The translations under genes were made by a program, and so were the position numbers. From the IMG/VR virus record IMGVR_UViG_3300035180_000859, positions 1 through 54,931 of that record: a stretch of 54,931 bases of DNA. One strand, 5' to 3'. A model generated the notes under the pieces. The model was given only the letters and a program-made list of their open reading frames with translations, was not told the DNA's origin and made no database searches. The DNA comes from a virus. Shown here piece after piece: positions 2,980-23,805 of the stretch (its first letter is position 1; each line of letters starts with the position of its first letter).

Positions 2980-3260
2980 TTGAAATGGGCATCGTCGTAG
3001 GCATGGGTTTACTCATCAGCCTAGTCAAAATGAACTGGAAGTGGCGCATGCACTTATTATCAAATCCTCTAACAATGGATATTCTTATATTCATTTCGTT
3101 ATGTCTGATCCACTGGGGCACGTATAGCGGCGTGATGGTTGCCACAGTCGGCGCCATGACGTGCTCACTGGTGCTATCAGGAGCCCGCTGGCTGTACGGA
3201 CACGTCGAGGATGGTACCTATGTACCAGGCTACTTCGATATTGGCTCTAAGCTCGTTTAA
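2976..3260 (+). CDS. small membrane protein
   Basis: I place the start at 2976, where ATGA overlaps the stop of the preceding gene; an in-frame ATG at 2967 is possible. The 94-residue product has about three hydrophobic segments (GIVVGMGLLISLV, ILIFISLCLIHW, and VMVATVGAMTCSLVL). Coupling to the preceding membrane protein suggests they act together. Function unknown. Confidence 0.65.
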   Translation: MIEMGIVVGMGLLISLVKMNWKWRMHLLSNPLTMDILIFISLCLIHWGTYSGVMVATVGAMTCSLVLSGARWLYGHVEDGTYVPGYFDIGSKLV

Positions 3261-3650: not shown

Positions 3651-4724
3651 ATGACCACATCCGTCGCACAAGCTCTGAACACTGCTGGCGTCTCCACAAC
3701 TAAACGCGTTCGTAAGATTGCTCCTGTCATCACCACTCCAAAGGAAACTCAAATGAAATCAGCTCGCGTCGTTCCCCCTGGCACCATGGCTGCACTCGCT
3801 GTAGCCTCGTCATCCGGCTCGACATTTTTTGACCCGATCGACTTACTTGAAGACAAGCTTGGCCATCAAGCAGCTCTGCACTCTCGGGTTATGGAGTCTA
3901 TGGCTTGGATGCTGGGCGCGTCTTGCATCGGTCAAGCACGCTCTGTGCTATTCACTCGCTATCAAGAACAAGAGACTGAACACACTAACACAGTCTCATT
4001 CAACGATTTCTGCCAAGGTGTCGCTGAAACCATCGACCATCCGTCTATATATGGGCGCAACAGTGATAACACCACCGACCTCGAAGCAAGCGAAGGTGCA
4101 CATGAAAGCCCCGAGGCTGTTTTGGCCATCCTGCTGGCTGTGTATGAACAATGGCACGATGCTGCTGCTCGTGCTGCAGCTGCTGATAACCGCGACTATA
4201 AATCCAAGTCATGGCGTGAGCAAATGGAATCTGAAAAAGTCAAAGCTCCTGACATCGGCACACGTGTCAACTACCGCAAGATCGCTGACCTCGAAGCACG
4301 CGGTGACACAGCCAAAGCTGAACGTCTGTACGCTTCATACATGGAAGCTAATGCCTTGGCTGCCGCATCACGTGTCGATAACAACAAGTCCTTAATGCCT
4401 ACTATCCTTGAAATTTTGCGCACCGCCGGGCGCTACGCATTGGAATCCTCACGTTTCGATGAACTGCCTCTACTCAAACAACGGCAGCTCACCACTTTCG
4501 CCATCGGGGCGATAGATCGTTCACGTAATGATTTGGCCAGTCGCATGAGCAAACAGCCCATTGCATTCGGCCACATTGCCGAGGCTGCCTTCCAGGCCAC
4601 TGAAGCTCTCAACAAAGTTGTGATGCAGAAGTTCAACGACGTTGGCGAGCTCGAGAATGTACGCTCACAAGTCAGCATCAACATGGAACGTGGCGCCAAA
4701 CGTGTCGCTTGTTCCATCGACTGA
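3651..4724 (+). CDS. hypothetical 357-residue protein
   Basis: The largest protein of the first rightward module. It is largely helical and soluble, with an Ala-rich middle and a C-terminal region rich in helix-forming residues. AAGGAAATCATC precedes the ATG. I recognise no domain or catalytic motif. It is the last gene before a hairpin terminator, so the module 1511-4724 is probably one transcription unit. Confidence 0.7.
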   Translation: MTTSVAQALNTAGVSTTKRVRKIAPVITTPKETQMKSARVVPPGTMAALAVASSSGSTFFDPIDLLEDKLGHQAALHSRVMESMAWMLGASCIGQARSVLFTRYQEQETEHTNTVSFNDFCQGVAETIDHPSIYGRNSDNTTDLEASEGAHESPEAVLAILLAVYEQWHDAAARAAAADNRDYKSKSWREQMESEKVKAPDIGTRVNYRKIADLEARGDTAKAERLYASYMEANALAAASRVDNNKSLMPTILEILRTAGRYALESSRFDELPLLKQRQLTTFAIGAIDRSRNDLASRMSKQPIAFGHIAEAAFQATEALNKVVMQKFNDVGELENVRSQVSINMERGAKRVACSID

Positions 4725-4735
4725 TAGTTAACAGG

Positions 4736-4765
4736 AAGGCAAGGGTCACATAATCCTTGCCTTTT
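4736..4765 (+). terminator. intrinsic terminator after the 357-residue protein gene
   Basis: AAGGCAAGG (4736-4744) pairs perfectly with CCTTGCCTT (4755-4763) over a 10-nt loop, ending in a short T run. It closes the membrane-protein module, so the next operon must have its own promoter within or near the adjacent repeat. Confidence 0.7.
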
Positions 4766-4794
4766 CTAGCCCTCAAAAACGGACTTACGCAATC

Positions 4795-4952
4795 ACGTTA
4801 CACAAGTTTTAAAACTCCTCTCTATAAAACTCTACTACTCCTTTATTACACTATATATTTCTTAATCTTAATTTAAAGAGTGTAAAGTGTAATATATGTA
4901 ATAAGTAGGGATAGAAGGCTTGTAGAGCGACTTTTTGATTACACTAATTACG
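4795..4952 (+). repeat. 158-bp inverted repeat, left copy
   Basis: This AT-rich block is repeated in reverse complement at 30970-31127 with only two differences (4810 T/C and 4929 G/A) and no gaps. It contains five TTACAC/GTGTAA cores at 4798, 4846, 4880, 4887 and 4939, plus the palindrome AGTTTTAAAACT. It lies between a terminator and the primase-helicase gene, so it probably carries that gene's promoter, the replication origin, or both. No coding frame of note. Confidence 0.95.
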
Positions 4953-5010: not shown

Positions 5011-7419
5011 ATGAAATTGACCTTTTTACAAGCCAGCGTTCCGTTAACCAAGTCGTACACGAAGCTGTCCGGCGGCACCATTGAAAAGTCTTCATACCCC
5101 AACGTATGGGAAGTCAGCTCGATCGATGAAGACATCACCACCCTGAAAGAATTTGAAGCCGCCATCGTCAAACACGCAGCCACCGGGCACTGTTTACTCA
5201 AAGGCAACGTGATGAAACCACTGGTGTCCGAGTCTCGCAAGGGCAGCACGGACAGCAACGCCACAACAAATTGGCTTTGCCTTGACATCGATGGTATCAA
5301 CCCTACCTTCACCACCATCGTGTCACGACCCAACCCAGTCACTGGGCAGATGGAAGAAGTACAGTCCGTGATCAATGTGACCATCGACACCCTCATGGAG
5401 TCACTCGGTCTTAAGGACGTCAGCTACATCCTTCAGTGGTCAGGCTCCATGGGCATCGGGGGCAACACCTTGCGCTGCCACATCTTCATCATGCTGACCA
5501 AAGCTATCAGCGCTCCACTCATCAAACAGTGGCTCATCCAGAAGAACCACGAGGTTGCCATTCTGCGTGAACACCAGGCACTGACAAAAACCGGTAGCTC
5601 GTTGACATGGGGCCTGGACATCACAGCCTGCCAAGCAGATAAGCTGATCTACATTGCACCACCCACACTCAAAGGCATCAAGAACCCACTCGGGCGTACC
5701 CCGCGCATCTCGCTCGTCACCAAAATCCAAGCAACTTATGACCTCACCGGCAAGATCAATTCGACTGATCAGAATCGTGCGCTTACAGACGCCAGGGTGC
5801 TTGAACTACGCGAACGCGACGGACTGCCTAAGCGCAAACTTGTTTACAAACATGTGGGCGGGCATGAAATTATGGCCAAGCCCGGTGAATGCATCGCCAC
5901 AGAGACTAAAGTTGATCGGGGGTTTGTCTACTTCAACCTCAACGGTGGAGATTCCTGGGCCTACTTTCATCCTGAAAACAACCCTGACTACATCTTCAAC
6001 TTTAAGGGTGAACCCGTCTACCTGACCAAGGAACTATTACCTAGCTACTGGGAATCCCTGAACCAGCAAGCCTATCGTGAAGCCTCCAATGGCCTCACCT
6101 ATCTGGCATTCCTGGACAGGGCCACCTCTACCTATTACCGAGGCACTTATGACGCAGCCAATGACCTCCTGGACATCTATCCCGCGAAGAACGAGTCGAT
6201 GGTTAGACAGTTTGCTGACGCCAACGGACTACGTCTCGGCCCCAATATCCCAGAATGGGACATGGAATTCAATCCGCTCAATGGCGTACGCGTCGACATC
6301 CCCAACCGCACCATCAACACCTTCGAGCGTACTGTCTATATGAAGGCACCAGTCAAGAAGGTTACCAAGATTCCACCCATGTGCAACAAAATCATCAGCC
6401 ACATCTTGTCCAACGACACAGGCACCAAGGAGCACTTCATGAACTGGCTGGCTTGTATCGCTCAGAACCTGGACCGCACGCGTACAGCCTGGGTATTTCA
6501 GGGCGTACCTGGAACAGGGAAAGGACTGCTGTTCAACAAGATTCTCCAACCCCTGTTTGGTAAAGACCAGGCAGTCATCAAACGTGCTGGCGAGCTGACT
6601 GAAAAATGGACAGACTTTGTGCAGGGCAAGTTCATCGTCTTCATCGACGAAATTCAAACTTCAGCCCTCAAAGACGAAGCCGGTGTGATCGCCAACATGA
6701 AGAACTTGATCACTGAGCCTACAGCAATGATCCGCATGATGAACCGCAACAGCTTCGCAGTACCCAACTACACAAACTGGATATTCGCCTCCAACAAACC
6801 AGACCCCGTGGCTGTGGACAAAAACGACCGGCGTTTCAACGTGGCACCTTACCAGGGCACCGAGTTCCCACGCCCCACGGATGAAGAGATCGACGCGATC
6901 GAAGGCGAGTTGCAGGCGTTCTATCACTACCTGCTGAACTACAGCGTCGACAAGCTCGTAGCCTCCACACCACTGCAGAGTGATGCACGTAACACACTCA
7001 TTACCCTGAGCCAGAGCACCAGTGAGAGCACCGCCGATGCTGTGCGTGAGGGCAATATGGAGTTCTTCCTGGACCAGCTGCCCAACACCGACGCTTATAA
7101 GCTCGACAACAAGCTGCTGCCTATCGTCGAATCCTACCGCCGCGCACTGTGCGACATCTTGTGCCGCGCCAGGCCAGGTGTACCATGCAACGTGCGCCGA
7201 GACGAGCTGTTTGCCATGTTCAACTTCACAGTGGGTGGCATGTCCCAGAGCCCAGCGACATTCACCCGGTTCTTAGGCCACCGCCAACTGACCATCAAAC
7301 CCGTGGCCATATCCGGTGGCAAAACAGAGCGTGGGCTCGCCACAGTATGGGAGAACGCTGCATCATTCCAAGACATCCTGAAAACACATTTCGCAGACAT
7401 GACAAAGGTGAAATCATGA
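5011..7419 (+). CDS. PrimPol-SF3 helicase replication protein
   Basis: An 802-residue fusion. The N-terminal half looks like an archaeo-eukaryotic primase (PrimPol): WLCLDID with D92 and D94, then TLRCH with H157. The C-terminal half is an SF3 helicase of the D5/phage type: Walker A GVPGTGKG (498-505), Walker B FIVFIDEIQ (D546, E547), a sensor stretch NWIFASNK and arginines in DRRFNVAP. Such proteins open the origin, unwind DNA and prime synthesis. It is first in the long operon and directly follows the left repeat copy, a natural place for an origin. It overlaps the next gene by four bases. Confidence 0.9.
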   Translation: MKLTFLQASVPLTKSYTKLSGGTIEKSSYPNVWEVSSIDEDITTLKEFEAAIVKHAATGHCLLKGNVMKPLVSESRKGSTDSNATTNWLCLDIDGINPTFTTIVSRPNPVTGQMEEVQSVINVTIDTLMESLGLKDVSYILQWSGSMGIGGNTLRCHIFIMLTKAISAPLIKQWLIQKNHEVAILREHQALTKTGSSLTWGLDITACQADKLIYIAPPTLKGIKNPLGRTPRISLVTKIQATYDLTGKINSTDQNRALTDARVLELRERDGLPKRKLVYKHVGGHEIMAKPGECIATETKVDRGFVYFNLNGGDSWAYFHPENNPDYIFNFKGEPVYLTKELLPSYWESLNQQAYREASNGLTYLAFLDRATSTYYRGTYDAANDLLDIYPAKNESMVRQFADANGLRLGPNIPEWDMEFNPLNGVRVDIPNRTINTFERTVYMKAPVKKVTKIPPMCNKIISHILSNDTGTKEHFMNWLACIAQNLDRTRTAWVFQGVPGTGKGLLFNKILQPLFGKDQAVIKRAGELTEKWTDFVQGKFIVFIDEIQTSALKDEAGVIANMKNLITEPTAMIRMMNRNSFAVPNYTNWIFASNKPDPVAVDKNDRRFNVAPYQGTEFPRPTDEEIDAIEGELQAFYHYLLNYSVDKLVASTPLQSDARNTLITLSQSTSESTADAVREGNMEFFLDQLPNTDAYKLDNKLLPIVESYRRALCDILCRARPGVPCNVRRDELFAMFNFTVGGMSQSPATFTRFLGHRQLTIKPVAISGGKTERGLATVWENAASFQDILKTHFADMTKVKS

Positions 7420-13438: not shown

Positions 13439-13479
13439 CCTGACTGTGTGAAATCCTGAGACGGCTTCACACAGTCAGG
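13439..13479 (+). promoter_or_regulatory. 14-bp perfect hairpin between MoxR and DUF3150-like genes
   Basis: The arm at 13439-13452 (CCTGACTGTGTGAA) pairs perfectly with 13466-13479 over a 13-nt loop. No T run follows, so it is not a classic terminator. It may set relative expression by RNA processing or attenuation. The rest of the 154-base gap has no clear promoter; AGAGAGC precedes the next ATG. Confidence 0.55.
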
Positions 13480-18754: not shown

Positions 18755-19462
18755 ATGGCAACTTCCTGGTCATTCAGCAAACTTGGTGATTTCACCAAGT
18801 GCAAAAAATATTTCTGGCTTAAACACGAGCAGAAAATTCCTGAGCCTGAGCGCCCCCTACCCAAAGGCAAAACAGAGCATGCCAACGATCGTGGTAGCCG
18901 CATCCATGACAATCTGGAGGGCTATGTTCGTGGCAACCACGACGATCTCTGCCCCGAAGCAGAGAAGTACTTTGGTGTTCACGCTGACTTTCTGCGCGTG
19001 ATGTTCGAAGAGGGCCTGGTCGAACTCGAGGGTGAGTGGGGCATGAACAAGGACTGGGAGATCGCTCCATGGGCCAATGCCTGGCTGCGCCTTAAGCTCG
19101 ACGTGCTGGTGCATGTGGGCACTGACGAGGCGATCGTAATCGACTACAAATCCGGTAAGAAGTGGGGCAATGAGGTTAAGCATGCCCAGCAGCTCCAGCT
19201 CTATGCCCTGGTCACCGCCCTACGCTACCCACATCTAGAGATGATTACCGCCGAGCTGTGGTACGTCGACATTGGCGAGACCACCAGCCAGACGTTCACA
19301 CGCGCCCAAGCGCTGCGTTTCAAGCGCGGGTTCGATGCCAACGGCACCGCGATCGTCAACTGCGTTGATTTTCCAAGCAACCCCAACAAGTGGAGTTGTC
19401 AATGGTGCATGTATGGGCCTCATCACTCTGGGCATTGCGCCGAAGGCGTAAGAAAAGCATAA
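18755..19462 (+). CDS. RecB/Cas4-like PD-(D/E)XK nuclease
   Basis: A 235-residue protein with the RecB nuclease pattern: SFSKLGDFTKCKKYFWL at the N-terminus, H51, LKLDVLV with D116, and VIDYKSGKK with D130 and K132, then a QLQLYALV helix. Cysteines C16, C215, C218 and C228 match the layout of iron-sulfur clusters in Cas4/AddB-type nucleases. It is likely a phage exonuclease for recombination or end processing. No CRISPR genes are present, so a Cas4 role in immunity is not suggested. Confidence 0.8.
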   Translation: MATSWSFSKLGDFTKCKKYFWLKHEQKIPEPERPLPKGKTEHANDRGSRIHDNLEGYVRGNHDDLCPEAEKYFGVHADFLRVMFEEGLVELEGEWGMNKDWEIAPWANAWLRLKLDVLVHVGTDEAIVIDYKSGKKWGNEVKHAQQLQLYALVTALRYPHLEMITAELWYVDIGETTSQTFTRAQALRFKRGFDANGTAIVNCVDFPSNPNKWSCQWCMYGPHHSGHCAEGVRKA

Positions 19463-19590
19463 ATGATCGTCACACGCAAAGGGTAGATAGCGTCGTTTCT
19501 GATCTGGCGGTGGGTGCGTCCTAAGCCGAATCAGCTGAGTAAAGTGGTCTTACCCGTCTCGCCCCACCTACTCGGACCTCCCCACCCTGC
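19463..19590. other. non-coding gap before a terminator
   Basis: No coding frame of note. It is part of a 335-base gap between the RecB-like nuclease gene and the next gene. There are several C-rich runs and no clear promoter. Confidence 0.5.
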
Positions 19591-19627
19591 CCCGACCAGG
19601 TAACGCACAAGTCGGGATTTTTTTTTT
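19591..19627 (+). terminator. intrinsic terminator, first of a duplicated pair
   Basis: CCCGAC (19591-19596) pairs with GTCGGG (19611-19616), followed by A and ten T. A 32-nt stretch of it (19593-19624) recurs at 19736-19767 with one difference. Confidence 0.75.
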
Positions 19628-19728
19628 GATGAGCAGGGTACGGCCGTCAGTCGGCATTCGCTATACGGGCTGTTTGATGCAGCTACGCAGCGTTAAGCGC
19701 AGGCATCTAGACATACCCTGCTCATCAA
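19626..19728 (+). ncRNA. structured element with 15-bp terminal inverted repeat (candidate RNA or mini-element)
   Basis: TTGATGAGCAGGGTA (19626-19640) is perfectly complementary to 19714-19728. Inside are a GCCG/CGGC hairpin (19643-19655) and a GATGC/GCATC arm (19676-19707), so the RNA could fold as a multi-branched structure closed by a 15-bp stem. A second terminator follows directly. The region has no coding frame of note. Alternatively it is a short insertion with inverted ends between duplicated flanks. Expression is untested. Confidence 0.45.
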
Positions 19729-19733
19729 AGAAC

Positions 19734-19767
19734 CTCGACCAGATAACGCACAAGTCGGGATTTTTTT
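19734..19767 (+). terminator. intrinsic terminator, second of a duplicated pair
   Basis: CTCGAC (19734-19739) pairs with GTCGGG (19754-19759; one G-T pair), followed by A and seven T. It is a near-exact copy of the terminator at 19591. Confidence 0.65.
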
Positions 19768-19797
19768 ATGTCGACAACTCCGGAGGACTTGACTGAA

Positions 19798-19992
19798 ATG
19801 GACACCGCCTTCCTTTGTGCGTCTTGCCGTAAATACAAGGCAAGTACAAGCCTCGCATCTATAAAGCTATTCAACAAGCTCGTTTGTCTCTCATGCCTCG
19901 ACAAGTACAACAGGCGTAGCACGCAAAAAAAGAAACGAACCACCGCCCGGTATACCGAAAGAGCCATAAACCATTTTGCGCATACACCATGA
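19798..19992 (+). CDS. small zinc-finger-like protein
   Basis: I choose the ATG at 19798 because GGAGG lies about 11 bases upstream; an ATG at 19768 is in frame but abuts the T run of the terminator. The 64-residue product has C7, C10, C30 and C33 (CxxC-x19-CxxC), then a basic tail. It is probably nucleic-acid binding. It overlaps the helicase gene by four bases. Confidence 0.55.
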   Translation: MDTAFLCASCRKYKASTSLASIKLFNKLVCLSCLDKYNRRSTQKKKRTTARYTERAINHFAHTP

Positions 19993-21407
19993 CTAAACCC
20001 AAACCCTTCGCGCACCAAAAGCAATCCATCAAACACAATGACACTACTTCCATCGTCTTTGATACCAGCGACCCGGGCACGGGCAAAACTTATGTCCGCA
20101 TTGCCGCCTTCGCTAAGCGCCGCGCAAAAGGCGGCGGAGCTCTACTCGTTCTTGCCCCACGATCTCTCCTGCGCAGCGTCTGGGTCAATGACACCAAAAA
20201 GTTTGCCCCGCACCTCACAGTTTCTGTGGCCGATGCAGCTAACCGTGCCGAGGCTTTCGCTGCCGATGCAGACGTTTACGTCACCAACGTAGATGCCGCC
20301 AAGTTTCTCGCTGATCAGAAACCGGCGTTCTTCAAACGATTTTCAGAGCTGGTGATTGACGAATCAACTGCCTTTAAACACCACACCAGCCAACGCTCTA
20401 AAGCCATGGCCAAGATCGCTAAATACTTCGAGTACCGGTGCTGCATGACGGGCACACCAAACAGCAATTCCATTACTGATGTTTGGCACCAGGTCTACAT
20501 TCTTGATGCAGGCAAACGCTTGGGGTTTAGTTTTTACAAATTCCGTGATGCTGTCTGCACACCCAACCAAGTGGGCCGCATGGCGCAGGCCATCAAGTGG
20601 GTAGACAAGGAAGGTTCCGAAGAGGCGGTCTTTGGCCTGCTATCCGACATCGTGATTCGGCATAGGTTCGAAGACTGCGTGGACATCCCACCCAACCACC
20701 AGTACAGCGTCGACTACGATCTGACGCCCAAGCAGATGCGTGCTTACCTTGAAATGGAAGAAACGCAAATGCTGACCTTCAAGGGCAAAGCGCCCAGCAT
20801 GATGGCGGTCAACGCCGCGGCGGTCGCCACCAAGCTGCAGCAAATCGCCTCGGGTGCGGTCTATGACGGCACCGGCGGTTACAAGACGATTGACGTCAGT
20901 CGCTACGAAATGTGTCTGGACCTGGTAGAGCAGCGCCAACACAGCCTGGTGATCTTCCAGTGGAAGCACCAGCGCGACGCCCTGGTCGAGGAGGCTACCA
21001 AGCGCGGTCTGACCTTCGCAGTGTTGGATGGCAAAACCACGGACAGAGAGCGCGACGAAATTGTGCAACGCTTTCAGGCTGGTCAGTACCGGGTGATCTT
21101 CGGCCACCCAAAGACTGTAGCCCATGGATTCACATTGACCAGAGGTACCGCCACGATCTGGGCCTCGCCGACGTACGATTTGGAGTGGTTCAAGCAGGGC
21201 AGCAAACGCATGCACCGGCTTGGCCAGACCCAGAAGACTGAGACTATCATCATCGTGGCTAAAGGCACAATCGACGAAAAGGTGTACGCCATGATGACAG
21301 AAAAAGACGAACGGATGACGAACTTGTTATCGTTGTTCGAGACACTGACACCGGTGGCAGTATCTGCGAAGAAAGTAGCTAAACGCAAATTATTGGAGAC
21401 AGCATGA
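19989..21407 (+). CDS. SNF2-like SF2 helicase
   Basis: A 472-residue helicase. It has a Q-motif-like FAHQKQSIK, Walker A DPGTGKT (28-34), motif II D124-E-S-T (ELVIDEST), CMTGTPN as motif III, and motif VI RMHRLGQTQK (407-416). The RMHRLGQ pattern is typical of SNF2 ATPases, which translocate on DNA. Phage members probably act in replication, recombination or anti-defence; the role here is not defined. Coupled to the small zinc-finger gene and to the next gene. Confidence 0.88.
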   Translation: MTKPKPFAHQKQSIKHNDTTSIVFDTSDPGTGKTYVRIAAFAKRRAKGGGALLVLAPRSLLRSVWVNDTKKFAPHLTVSVADAANRAEAFAADADVYVTNVDAAKFLADQKPAFFKRFSELVIDESTAFKHHTSQRSKAMAKIAKYFEYRCCMTGTPNSNSITDVWHQVYILDAGKRLGFSFYKFRDAVCTPNQVGRMAQAIKWVDKEGSEEAVFGLLSDIVIRHRFEDCVDIPPNHQYSVDYDLTPKQMRAYLEMEETQMLTFKGKAPSMMAVNAAAVATKLQQIASGAVYDGTGGYKTIDVSRYEMCLDLVEQRQHSLVIFQWKHQRDALVEEATKRGLTFAVLDGKTTDRERDEIVQRFQAGQYRVIFGHPKTVAHGFTLTRGTATIWASPTYDLEWFKQGSKRMHRLGQTQKTETIIIVAKGTIDEKVYAMMTEKDERMTNLLSLFETLTPVAVSAKKVAKRKLLETA

Positions 21408-21643
21408 CCCCTGAACTCATCAACCTCGCACGAGCCACCGTGATGACCAAGGCGGCTTTTTGGGACGCCCTACGCGCCCTTGAGACCGCTACGGCAAGTA
21501 ACCCCTACAACGATGGCGATTGGTCAGACCACATCAACGACAAGGTCATCCAGATGGTCAATTCCTTGGCCGCCTTTACTTCGGAGATTGAACCTATCGC
21601 CGACGAGGACTTGGTTGATCTCATCAGCCTCGCCCAATCATGA
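21404..21643 (+). CDS. small helical protein, unknown function
   Basis: A 79-residue, acidic, helical protein coupled by ATGA overlaps to both the helicase and the DNA polymerase genes. No family recognised. Position suggests a replication accessory role. Confidence 0.55.
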   Translation: MTPELINLARATVMTKAAFWDALRALETATASNPYNDGDWSDHINDKVIQMVNSLAAFTSEIEPIADEDLVDLISLAQS

Positions 21644-23805
21644 CCTGGACTACCGCACTCCGCAAACAGAAGGCCGTGGCCACGTCGACCTTGGGCTTCA
21701 GTCGTCCAGCCATCCCGCAACATACACCTGACTGGGCGCGCCTGGTCAGCCTCGATTTCGAGACGTACTACGACGTCGACTACACACTCAGCAAGCTGAG
21801 TACCTCTGAGTACGTGCGTGACCCGCGCTTCAAGGCGCAGATGGTCGGCATTAAAGTCGGCAATGGCAAAACAAGGATCATCCCCCATGCAAAAATCAAG
21901 ACCGAGCTGGCTAAGATCAATTGGTCGACACACAGCCTACTGTGCCACAACACGCAGTTTGATGGTTTTGTGCTTTCCCATCATTATGGTATCCACCCTG
22001 CTTTTTTGTATGACTCTCTTAGCATGGCACGCGGTTTGCATAGCAACGACATTGGTGCTGGGCTTGATGAGGTGTCTGTTTATTACGGCGGTCACGGCAA
22101 GCTCGAAGGTCTGGAAGCGACTAAAGGGGTTCTGAATTGGGACAAGAAACTGTTTGCCGCCACCGCCATCTATTGCGCCAATGACGTTGACGAGATGCTG
22201 CGCGTCTTCAAGTTAATGCTGCCGCAAGTGCCCGACGATGAGATTCACCTCATCGACCTGACCTGCCGAATGTTCTGTGACCCTGTACTGAAAGTCGACA
22301 TTCCGCGTGTCGAAAAGGAGCTCGAGCGCGAGCTGGCCCGGCGCGAGGTATTGATGTACGAGGCAGTTGATCCGACCGAGCACGATCTGAACGGCAGCCT
22401 GTACGACAAAGCCGTGCATGCCAAGCTACTCAAGGGCCCAGAGAAATTGCTCGAGGGCGTGCCCCGTGACATGCAGATCATCAAGCGCATCATTGGCTCC
22501 AATGAGATGTTCGCTGCGCTGCTGCGCACCGAGGGTGTCGAACCACCGGTCAAAATCAGTGATGCCTGGATCAAAAAGAAGCCAGAAGAACGCGATAAGG
22601 CAGTCGAACTACTGGCTGAAAAAAAGGGTATCAGCCTAAAGGATGCAGAGTACGAAATCAAGTGGACCTATGCGTTCGCTAAAGATGACGTGGCCTTCAC
22701 CGAGCTGCCCAATCAGGTCGACAACTGGGGGTTTGATTTGAATCTTCACAGCGACGTGGCCCTGATGGTCGCCAAGCAAGAGCGCCTACAGGCTCTGGTC
22801 GATGTGCGAATCGCAGTCAAGTCCACAACGAACATCACCCGGGCTGAGCGCTTCTTGACAGCAGGGGCTAATGGCATGAGCCTGCCAATAGGCTACGCCT
22901 ATTACCGCGCGCACACCGGGCGCTGGGGTGGGCAGAACAAGATGAATATGCAGAACTTGACCCGAGGTGGCGAGTTACGTTTATCAATTTTGGCTGCCAA
23001 AGGACACCAGATCGCGGTACAGGACAGTGGCCAAATCGAATGTCGTGTGAATGGCTGGCTCTGGGGCCAAGACGATTTGATGGATGCGTTCAGAGACGCT
23101 GACCGTGGTATTGGGCGTGATGCCTACTGCAACTTTGCTGATCACATCTACGGCCGTGAGATCACCAAGGCTGACAAGGTGGAGCGCTTCGTCGGTAAGG
23201 TATGCGTTCTGGGCCTCGGGTTTCAGATGGGCGCACCCAAGTTACAGACCACCTTTGCCAAAGGCGCCTTGGGTGGCCCGCCGGTGTACTTCGAGCTCGA
23301 CAAATGCAAGATGATTGTCAACACCTACCGCAACAAGAACTACAAAATTCAAGCTGGCTGGAAAATCTGCGAGCGCATCATTGAAGACATGGCTGCTGGG
23401 CGTACTGGTGGCTACGGCCCACTGAACTGGGAAGCGAACACTATCTGGCTACCCAACGGCATGGCCTTGAAGTATCCCGACTTGCGCAAAGCAACTGGCG
23501 AGAAGGGTTGGGATGAGTGGAGCTACCAGGGCGGCAAAATGCGCAAGAAGATTTATGGCGGCCTACTCTGCGAAAACATCGTCCAGGCCCTGGCACGAAT
23601 TATTGTGGCCTGGCAGATGCTCCAAATCAGCCGTAAATACCGCGTCGTCATGACCACGCACGACGAGGTGGTAGCCATGCCAAAGACAGCCCAGGCAAAA
23701 GCCTGTCTAGCATTTATGGCTAAATGGATGAGCACCGCGCCAGCATGGTGCTCAGACATCCCTCTAAACTGTGAAGGAGGATTCGATGTCAATTACAGTA
23801 AGTAA
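21640..23805 (+). CDS. DNA polymerase, family A
   Basis: A 721-residue polymerase with a 3'-5' exonuclease domain (SLDFETYYD, D39 and E41) and the three polymerase motifs: A around D462 (QDSGQIECR), B around R516 and K520 (RFVGKVCVLGLGFQMG), and C H674-D675-E676 (TTHDEVV). No 5'-3' exonuclease domain is present, as is usual for phage enzymes. Motif A reads D-S-G-Q-I-E-C-R rather than D-Y-S-Q-I-E-L-R. It is probably the replicative polymerase working with the PrimPol-helicase. Confidence 0.93.
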   Translation: MTWTTALRKQKAVATSTLGFSRPAIPQHTPDWARLVSLDFETYYDVDYTLSKLSTSEYVRDPRFKAQMVGIKVGNGKTRIIPHAKIKTELAKINWSTHSLLCHNTQFDGFVLSHHYGIHPAFLYDSLSMARGLHSNDIGAGLDEVSVYYGGHGKLEGLEATKGVLNWDKKLFAATAIYCANDVDEMLRVFKLMLPQVPDDEIHLIDLTCRMFCDPVLKVDIPRVEKELERELARREVLMYEAVDPTEHDLNGSLYDKAVHAKLLKGPEKLLEGVPRDMQIIKRIIGSNEMFAALLRTEGVEPPVKISDAWIKKKPEERDKAVELLAEKKGISLKDAEYEIKWTYAFAKDDVAFTELPNQVDNWGFDLNLHSDVALMVAKQERLQALVDVRIAVKSTTNITRAERFLTAGANGMSLPIGYAYYRAHTGRWGGQNKMNMQNLTRGGELRLSILAAKGHQIAVQDSGQIECRVNGWLWGQDDLMDAFRDADRGIGRDAYCNFADHIYGREITKADKVERFVGKVCVLGLGFQMGAPKLQTTFAKGALGGPPVYFELDKCKMIVNTYRNKNYKIQAGWKICERIIEDMAAGRTGGYGPLNWEANTIWLPNGMALKYPDLRKATGEKGWDEWSYQGGKMRKKIYGGLLCENIVQALARIIVAWQMLQISRKYRVVMTTHDEVVAMPKTAQAKACLAFMAKWMSTAPAWCSDIPLNCEGGFDVNYSK

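Follow-up and report, generated by a model that had tools for sequence, protein, structure and literature searches.

The gap between an exonuclease gene and a helicase gene in an uncultivated phage contains two nearly identical copies of a short sequence on either side of an inverted repeat, which raises the question of what kind of element is located there. The stretch analysed, hereafter referred to as the window, is a virus record of 54,931 bases with one copy of the inverted-repeat unit. An earlier note on this DNA had described the locus as a structured element bracketed by duplicated terminators, perhaps a small RNA or else a mini-element that had been inserted together with a flank duplication.

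Gene neighbourhood and repeats

The gap follows a gene encoding a PD-(D/E)XK (RecB-like) exonuclease (18755–19462, + strand; PHROG 69, E = 5e-16; PF12705, E = 8e-19) and is succeeded on the same strand by a small 74-amino-acid ORF without a family match (19768–19992) and by a gene encoding an SNF2-like helicase (19989–21407; PHROG 62, E = 3e-106; PF00176), after which comes the gene for a family A DNA polymerase. The exonuclease, SNF2-like helicase and DNA polymerase genes (window 18755–23805) are found in the same order in Pseudomonas phage KPP25 (Kochitakasuvirus), with about 40% protein identity, and from these sequences the window phage seems to be an uncultivated and distant relative. Although the KPP25-like Pseudomonas phages have this gene order in common with the window, their gap holds a 303-nt ORF. 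Elsewhere in the window, at 13439–13479, a 14-bp perfect inverted repeat with a 13-nt loop forms a strong hairpin (CCTGACTGTGTGAA).

The 32-nt segment that had been reported to occur at 19593–19624 and 19736–19767 with one change is present as claimed, and extends to a direct repeat of 35 nt with two differences (19590–19624 and 19733–19767). The inverted repeat between the two copies, given as 15 bp, proved to be longer, with 16 perfectly matched base pairs (19625–19640 with 19714–19729) that extend to 19 nt at 95%; no longer one within 200 nt occurs anywhere in the window, the chance expectation for a perfect 16-mer at such a distance being about 0.003 in 55 kb. The unit that it closes is predicted to fold far more stably than shuffled sequence, with z scores of −5.1 and −7.4 for the + and − strands, respectively. 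The idea of a structured RNA at this locus stood as to its existence and had to be corrected as to its place: the RNA consists of the segment first read as the upstream terminator and about 90 nt upstream of it, and not mainly of the region between the repeats, and the conserved structure reaches back to about 19499, beyond the span that had been outlined.

Fold and covariation of the pseudoknotted RNA

The conserved RNA occupies about 118 nt of the + strand (19499–19616). Its 5′ part begins with the hairpin P0 (CTGAT, 19499–19503, with ATCAG, 19530–19534), which is weak in the window copy alone and carries strand A (GTGCGT, 19514–19519) in its loop, followed by the variable hairpin P3 (CTGAGTA, 19535–19541, with TACTCGG, 19569–19575), at the position of which the members have stems of 5–12 bp. 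The 3′ part is a core of 32 nt composed of the strands B, C, B′, A′ and C′. In this core, B and B′ form a stem (CCCTG, 19585–19589, with CAGGT, 19597–19601), the outermost pair of which is mismatched in the window; C, which is located in the loop of this stem, pairs with C′ (CCCGAC, 19591–19596, with GTCGGG, 19611–19616) across B′ and A′; and A′ (ACGCAC, 19603–19608) is the partner of A in 15/15 members. The spacing of the core shows zero length variation, with B (5 nt), 1 nt, C (6 nt), B′ (5 nt), 1 nt, A′ (6 nt), 2 nt and C′ (6 nt) in succession. In the window phage, C′ is followed by a terminator-like run of ten T residues (19618–19627), and the first of the two supposed terminators therefore corresponds to C, B′, A′ and C′ plus this T-run.

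A mechanical search for the pairing pattern arrived at this strand arrangement in every member. The resulting fold, a kissing hairpin (the 6-nt loop strand A with A′) joined to an H-type pseudoknot, is well supported by the sequence comparison; in the pseudoknot, the B/B′ stem has 5 bp, loop 1 has 1 nt, the C/C′ stem has 6 bp and A′ is placed inside loop 3. A P0-type stem of 4–12 bp is found in 15/15 members with no sequence kinship between them, and P0 and P3 recur in nearly all members, each beating shuffles in about half. Pairing of the 3′ tail (ACC) with the GGGT before A, which would add a fourth helix and seemed plausible by eye, was rejected because its covariation does not exceed that of shuffles.

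Standard pairs fill 99.2% of the 255 pair cells of the 15 distinct sequences, and 11 of the 17 pairs have changed on both sides, with the changes spread over all three helices. They affect three of the six pairs of A/A′, for which the variants GTGCGT/ACGCAC, GTGAGT/ACTCAC, GTACGT/ACGTAC and GTGCAT/ATGCAC were found, three of the five pairs of B/B′ (97% of cells paired) and five of the six pairs of C/C′ (100% of cells paired). None of 500 shuffles, a control that ignores the relatedness of the sequences, matched the observed pairing and both-side changes; controls with slid partners, which allow for relatedness, gave 21–42% pairing and 0–2 pairs changed on both sides, a very large contrast. Covariation was also computed on 13 sequences. 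Some of the pairs are G–U on the coding strand, as expected if RNA of that strand is what folds, and a few unpaired bases are nearly invariant (G3, C21, A33, A40 and A48 of alignment A5).

Distribution and gene contexts

Exonuclease-encoding loci were taken from viral contigs, and a shared motif was read in the exonuclease–helicase gap of many of them. The RNA was found in at least 15 uncultivated phages, as 15 distinct sequences from at least two phage lineages; it is thus neither confined to this locus nor devoid of covariation, the combination that the earlier note had named among the signs against its element. The core was turned into a 39-nt model, R1, with which the members score 51–63 bits and the first copy in the window 54.4 bits. 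In each of the records searched, one full copy was found and no more. Searches with DNA patterns yielded a further lineage (L109 and L120/L121), in which the RNA follows a GATase-like gene that neighbours an amidoligase gene, whereas the exonuclease of these phages is a distant relative encoded some 6–9 kb away.

The RNA is intercistronic and on the coding strand in every member. Its two upstream contexts, the exonuclease gene on the one hand and the GATase-like gene beside the amidoligase gene on the other, are unrelated, and what lies downstream, the helicase gene or unrelated small ORFs, varies between members. The distance from the end of C′ to the next start codon, counted on sequence tails that begin with the last base of C′, is 18–27 nt in 12 of the 13 uninterrupted cases and 39 nt in the other. 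On a 37-tip exonuclease tree, presence and absence of the RNA entail eight changes, at least five of which are forced by well-supported branches; on this phylogenetic evidence, the RNA is often gained, lost or exchanged among phages. In relatives without the RNA, the exonuclease gene and the next gene nearly abut or are separated by another insert. The same gene gap of L055 contains a possible decayed core copy (3135–3172, 15.6 bits), and this phage may keep a remnant of the RNA. The exonuclease genes of L093 and L094 are followed by GC-rich spacers with possible structure (e.g. GGTTAGTCCCGAGGGACATCCC) unlike the pseudoknotted RNA.

The covariance models of the 4227 families of Rfam 15 gave no match at gathering score, and a relaxed search with three members (E up to 10) returned chance hits only. 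Neither the window region nor the RNAs of two relatives gave a meaningful BLAST match in 50,697 phage records. When 84,980 genomes of bacteria and archaea were scanned for the pattern, six hits emerged, none of which was counted, strand A being absent in all; viral-contig pattern hits lacking strand A were likewise rejected, as was L105, which has one short match but lacks the C/C′ spacing. No description of the RNA was found in literature searches, which covered few subscription journals. As far as can be tested, with neither an Rfam match nor a description found, the RNA family is new.

The second core copy and the inverted-repeat unit

The second core copy of the window is partial (19733–19767, + strand) and reaches 23.7 bits with R1. 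It comprises C (19734–19739), CAGAT at the position of B′, A′ (19746–19751), C′ (19754–19759) and a run of seven T residues, and has no B strand; from its sequence, this copy is probably a relic and probably cannot adopt the whole fold. A duplication of the whole RNA including its 5′ half was rejected by alignment, in which 887 of 1000 shuffles scored as high. The supposed duplicated terminators are hence the 3′ core of a full copy of the conserved pseudoknotted RNA and a partial duplicate of it, and not primarily terminators. The insertion of a mini-element with a target duplication has little in its favour: one of the two 'duplicates' is part of a larger RNA, the flank repeat is homologous to the RNA core instead of being a neutral target, a length of 35 nt is unusual for a target duplication, and no transposase was noticed.

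The inverted-repeat unit itself measures 105 nt (19625–19729, + strand), its arms closing 73 nt, and has its closest counterpart in the same gene gap of L025/L004, the helicase sequence of which is close to that of the window phage. In L025, at 4710–4804 and 8 nt past the end of the exonuclease match, a 14-bp inverted repeat closes 67 nt; its arms differ in sequence from those of the window unit, its fold z score is −4.8 and its similarity to the window unit is weak, with two of 500 shuffles as good. L025 lacks the pseudoknotted RNA, and these two sequences hint that the inverted-repeat unit may be a second, independent structured element. A search for the 103-nt unit as originally delimited found it only here, save for this weakly similar unit of L025.

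Directly behind the pseudoknotted RNA of L007 there is a tRNA-like gene (6781–6878; Rfam tRNA, 32 bits, gathering score 29), which is not called by ARAGORN and which L016, a close relative, does not have. Other RNA units are thus accommodated in the space that follows the RNA, namely the inverted-repeat unit in the window and the tRNA in L007. Between two genes of L071 (2070–2176), a perfect 19-bp inverted repeat closes 69 nt (z = −8.7 as RNA); its size is like that of the window unit, to which no clear sequence similarity was found. A hairpin of similar size in L038 was set aside as lying inside a DNA polymerase gene.

Possible roles of the RNA

The reading favoured here, with a confidence that is evenly balanced, is that the element comprises one complete copy of a conserved structured RNA together with an incomplete duplicate of its 3′ part, and that this RNA acts in cis between the cistrons of an operon mRNA. 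The RNA would be transcribed within this mRNA and would act as a pre-folded barrier or protein-binding site, controlling how the flanking cistrons, whichever genes these may be, are translated, processed or degraded; in the window phage, the 3′ core would have been duplicated around the inverted-repeat unit. Since there are two upstream contexts and several unrelated downstream ORFs, the effect would be independent of gene identity, and a specific autoregulatory operator is disfavoured because the downstream gene is not constant. On the other hand, the short spacers may reflect genome compaction only, the tRNA in the L007 slot hints at a cluster of RNA genes, and the patchy presence also fits an accessory RNA acting in trans.

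Such a noncoding RNA, cut from the operon transcript and acting, for example, on a host or defence protein as its decoy or modulator, would also suit the two unrelated gene contexts with no fixed neighbour and the adjoining RNA units, but it is considered unlikely: most members have no U-run or promoter at the ends of the RNA, a promoter scan of the window stayed at chance level, and there is no conserved single-stranded antisense seed, A′, C and C′ changing with their partners. A self-cleaving ribozyme in the intercistronic spacer is an improbable alternative. The compact double-pseudoknot topology (A B C B′ A′ C′), in outline like twister, and the few nearly invariant unpaired bases recall a ribozyme. 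In type P1 twister ribozymes, an outer stem, an inner hairpin and a loop-to-3′ pseudoknot follow one another, which is the order of pairing strands observed here; however, there is no recognisable twister core, no ribozyme model of Rfam was matched at gathering score, nor by the three members that were searched with E values up to 10, the P0 hairpin around A has no known counterpart in twister, and the conserved unpaired bases are few for a catalytic core. That the RNA represents a new phage-carried functional class, self-cleaving or host-manipulating in trans, and moves between operons as a module that shares its spacers with other RNA units is a further proposal and a doubtful one.

The duplicated intrinsic terminators of the earlier note have in their favour the GC-rich C/C′ pairing followed by T-runs in the window phage, and by a shorter T-run in L053. 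This explanation is nevertheless very unlikely, as 13 of the 15 members have no T-run after C′, the hairpin loop would measure 14 nt, the segment was not called by a terminator scan, and the conserved A/A′ and B/B′ pairings are left unexplained. The absence of the U-run from most relatives argues that the RNA is not primarily a terminator, a reading that applies at most to the window phage and L053. The RNA units of type III toxin–antitoxin systems (ToxI) are pseudoknotted repeats of about 36 nt, which the tandem partial repeat of about 35 nt in the window resembles; in contrast to ToxI, the other members have a single copy, the fold includes a hairpin upstream, and the RNA of the window precedes the 74-amino-acid ORF and then the helicase gene. 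No toxin match (Pfam/PHROGs), as would accompany a type III antitoxin, was found among the downstream genes checked.

Pseudoknotted elements in phage mRNAs are, as a kind, not without precedent, and T4-type phages provide the nearest documented parallel, by analogy, in their gene 32 pseudoknot. With a 5-bp stem, a 1-nt loop 1 and a 6–7-bp stem, the gene 32 pseudoknot has a geometry close to that of the core described here, and both are phage H-type pseudoknots upstream of a ribosome-binding site. The autoregulatory pseudoknot of T4 gene 32 is found in a region 67 nt ahead of the start codon (PMC3014915), whereas the RNA described here is intercistronic and ends 18–27 nt before a start codon. 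It further differs in the extra kissing hairpin that pairs with loop 3 and in being followed by a helicase gene or varying, unrelated small ORFs, and not, as a leader would be, by the gene for a single-strand binding protein to which it responds. The put RNAs of phage HK022, of about 70 nt with two stem-loops downstream of early promoters (PMC9378689), are likewise structured phage RNAs within an operon, and a put-like antiterminator, which would modify RNA polymerase so that it reads through a long operon, would be cis-acting, independent of context and at home in phage operons. This too is highly improbable, since a put RNA has only two simple stem-loops and is found close to an early promoter, while the RNA described here has about 118 nt, lies in mid-operon and is pseudoknotted, no pseudoknot having been reported for put.

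Conclusions

With its helices known from covariation and a 39-nt search model in place, the RNA lends itself to the direct design of assays of folding and cleavage in vitro and of reporter assays. The locus brings to light a small, rigidly spaced and strongly covarying pseudoknot family, present in two or more lineages of phages and as many gene contexts.
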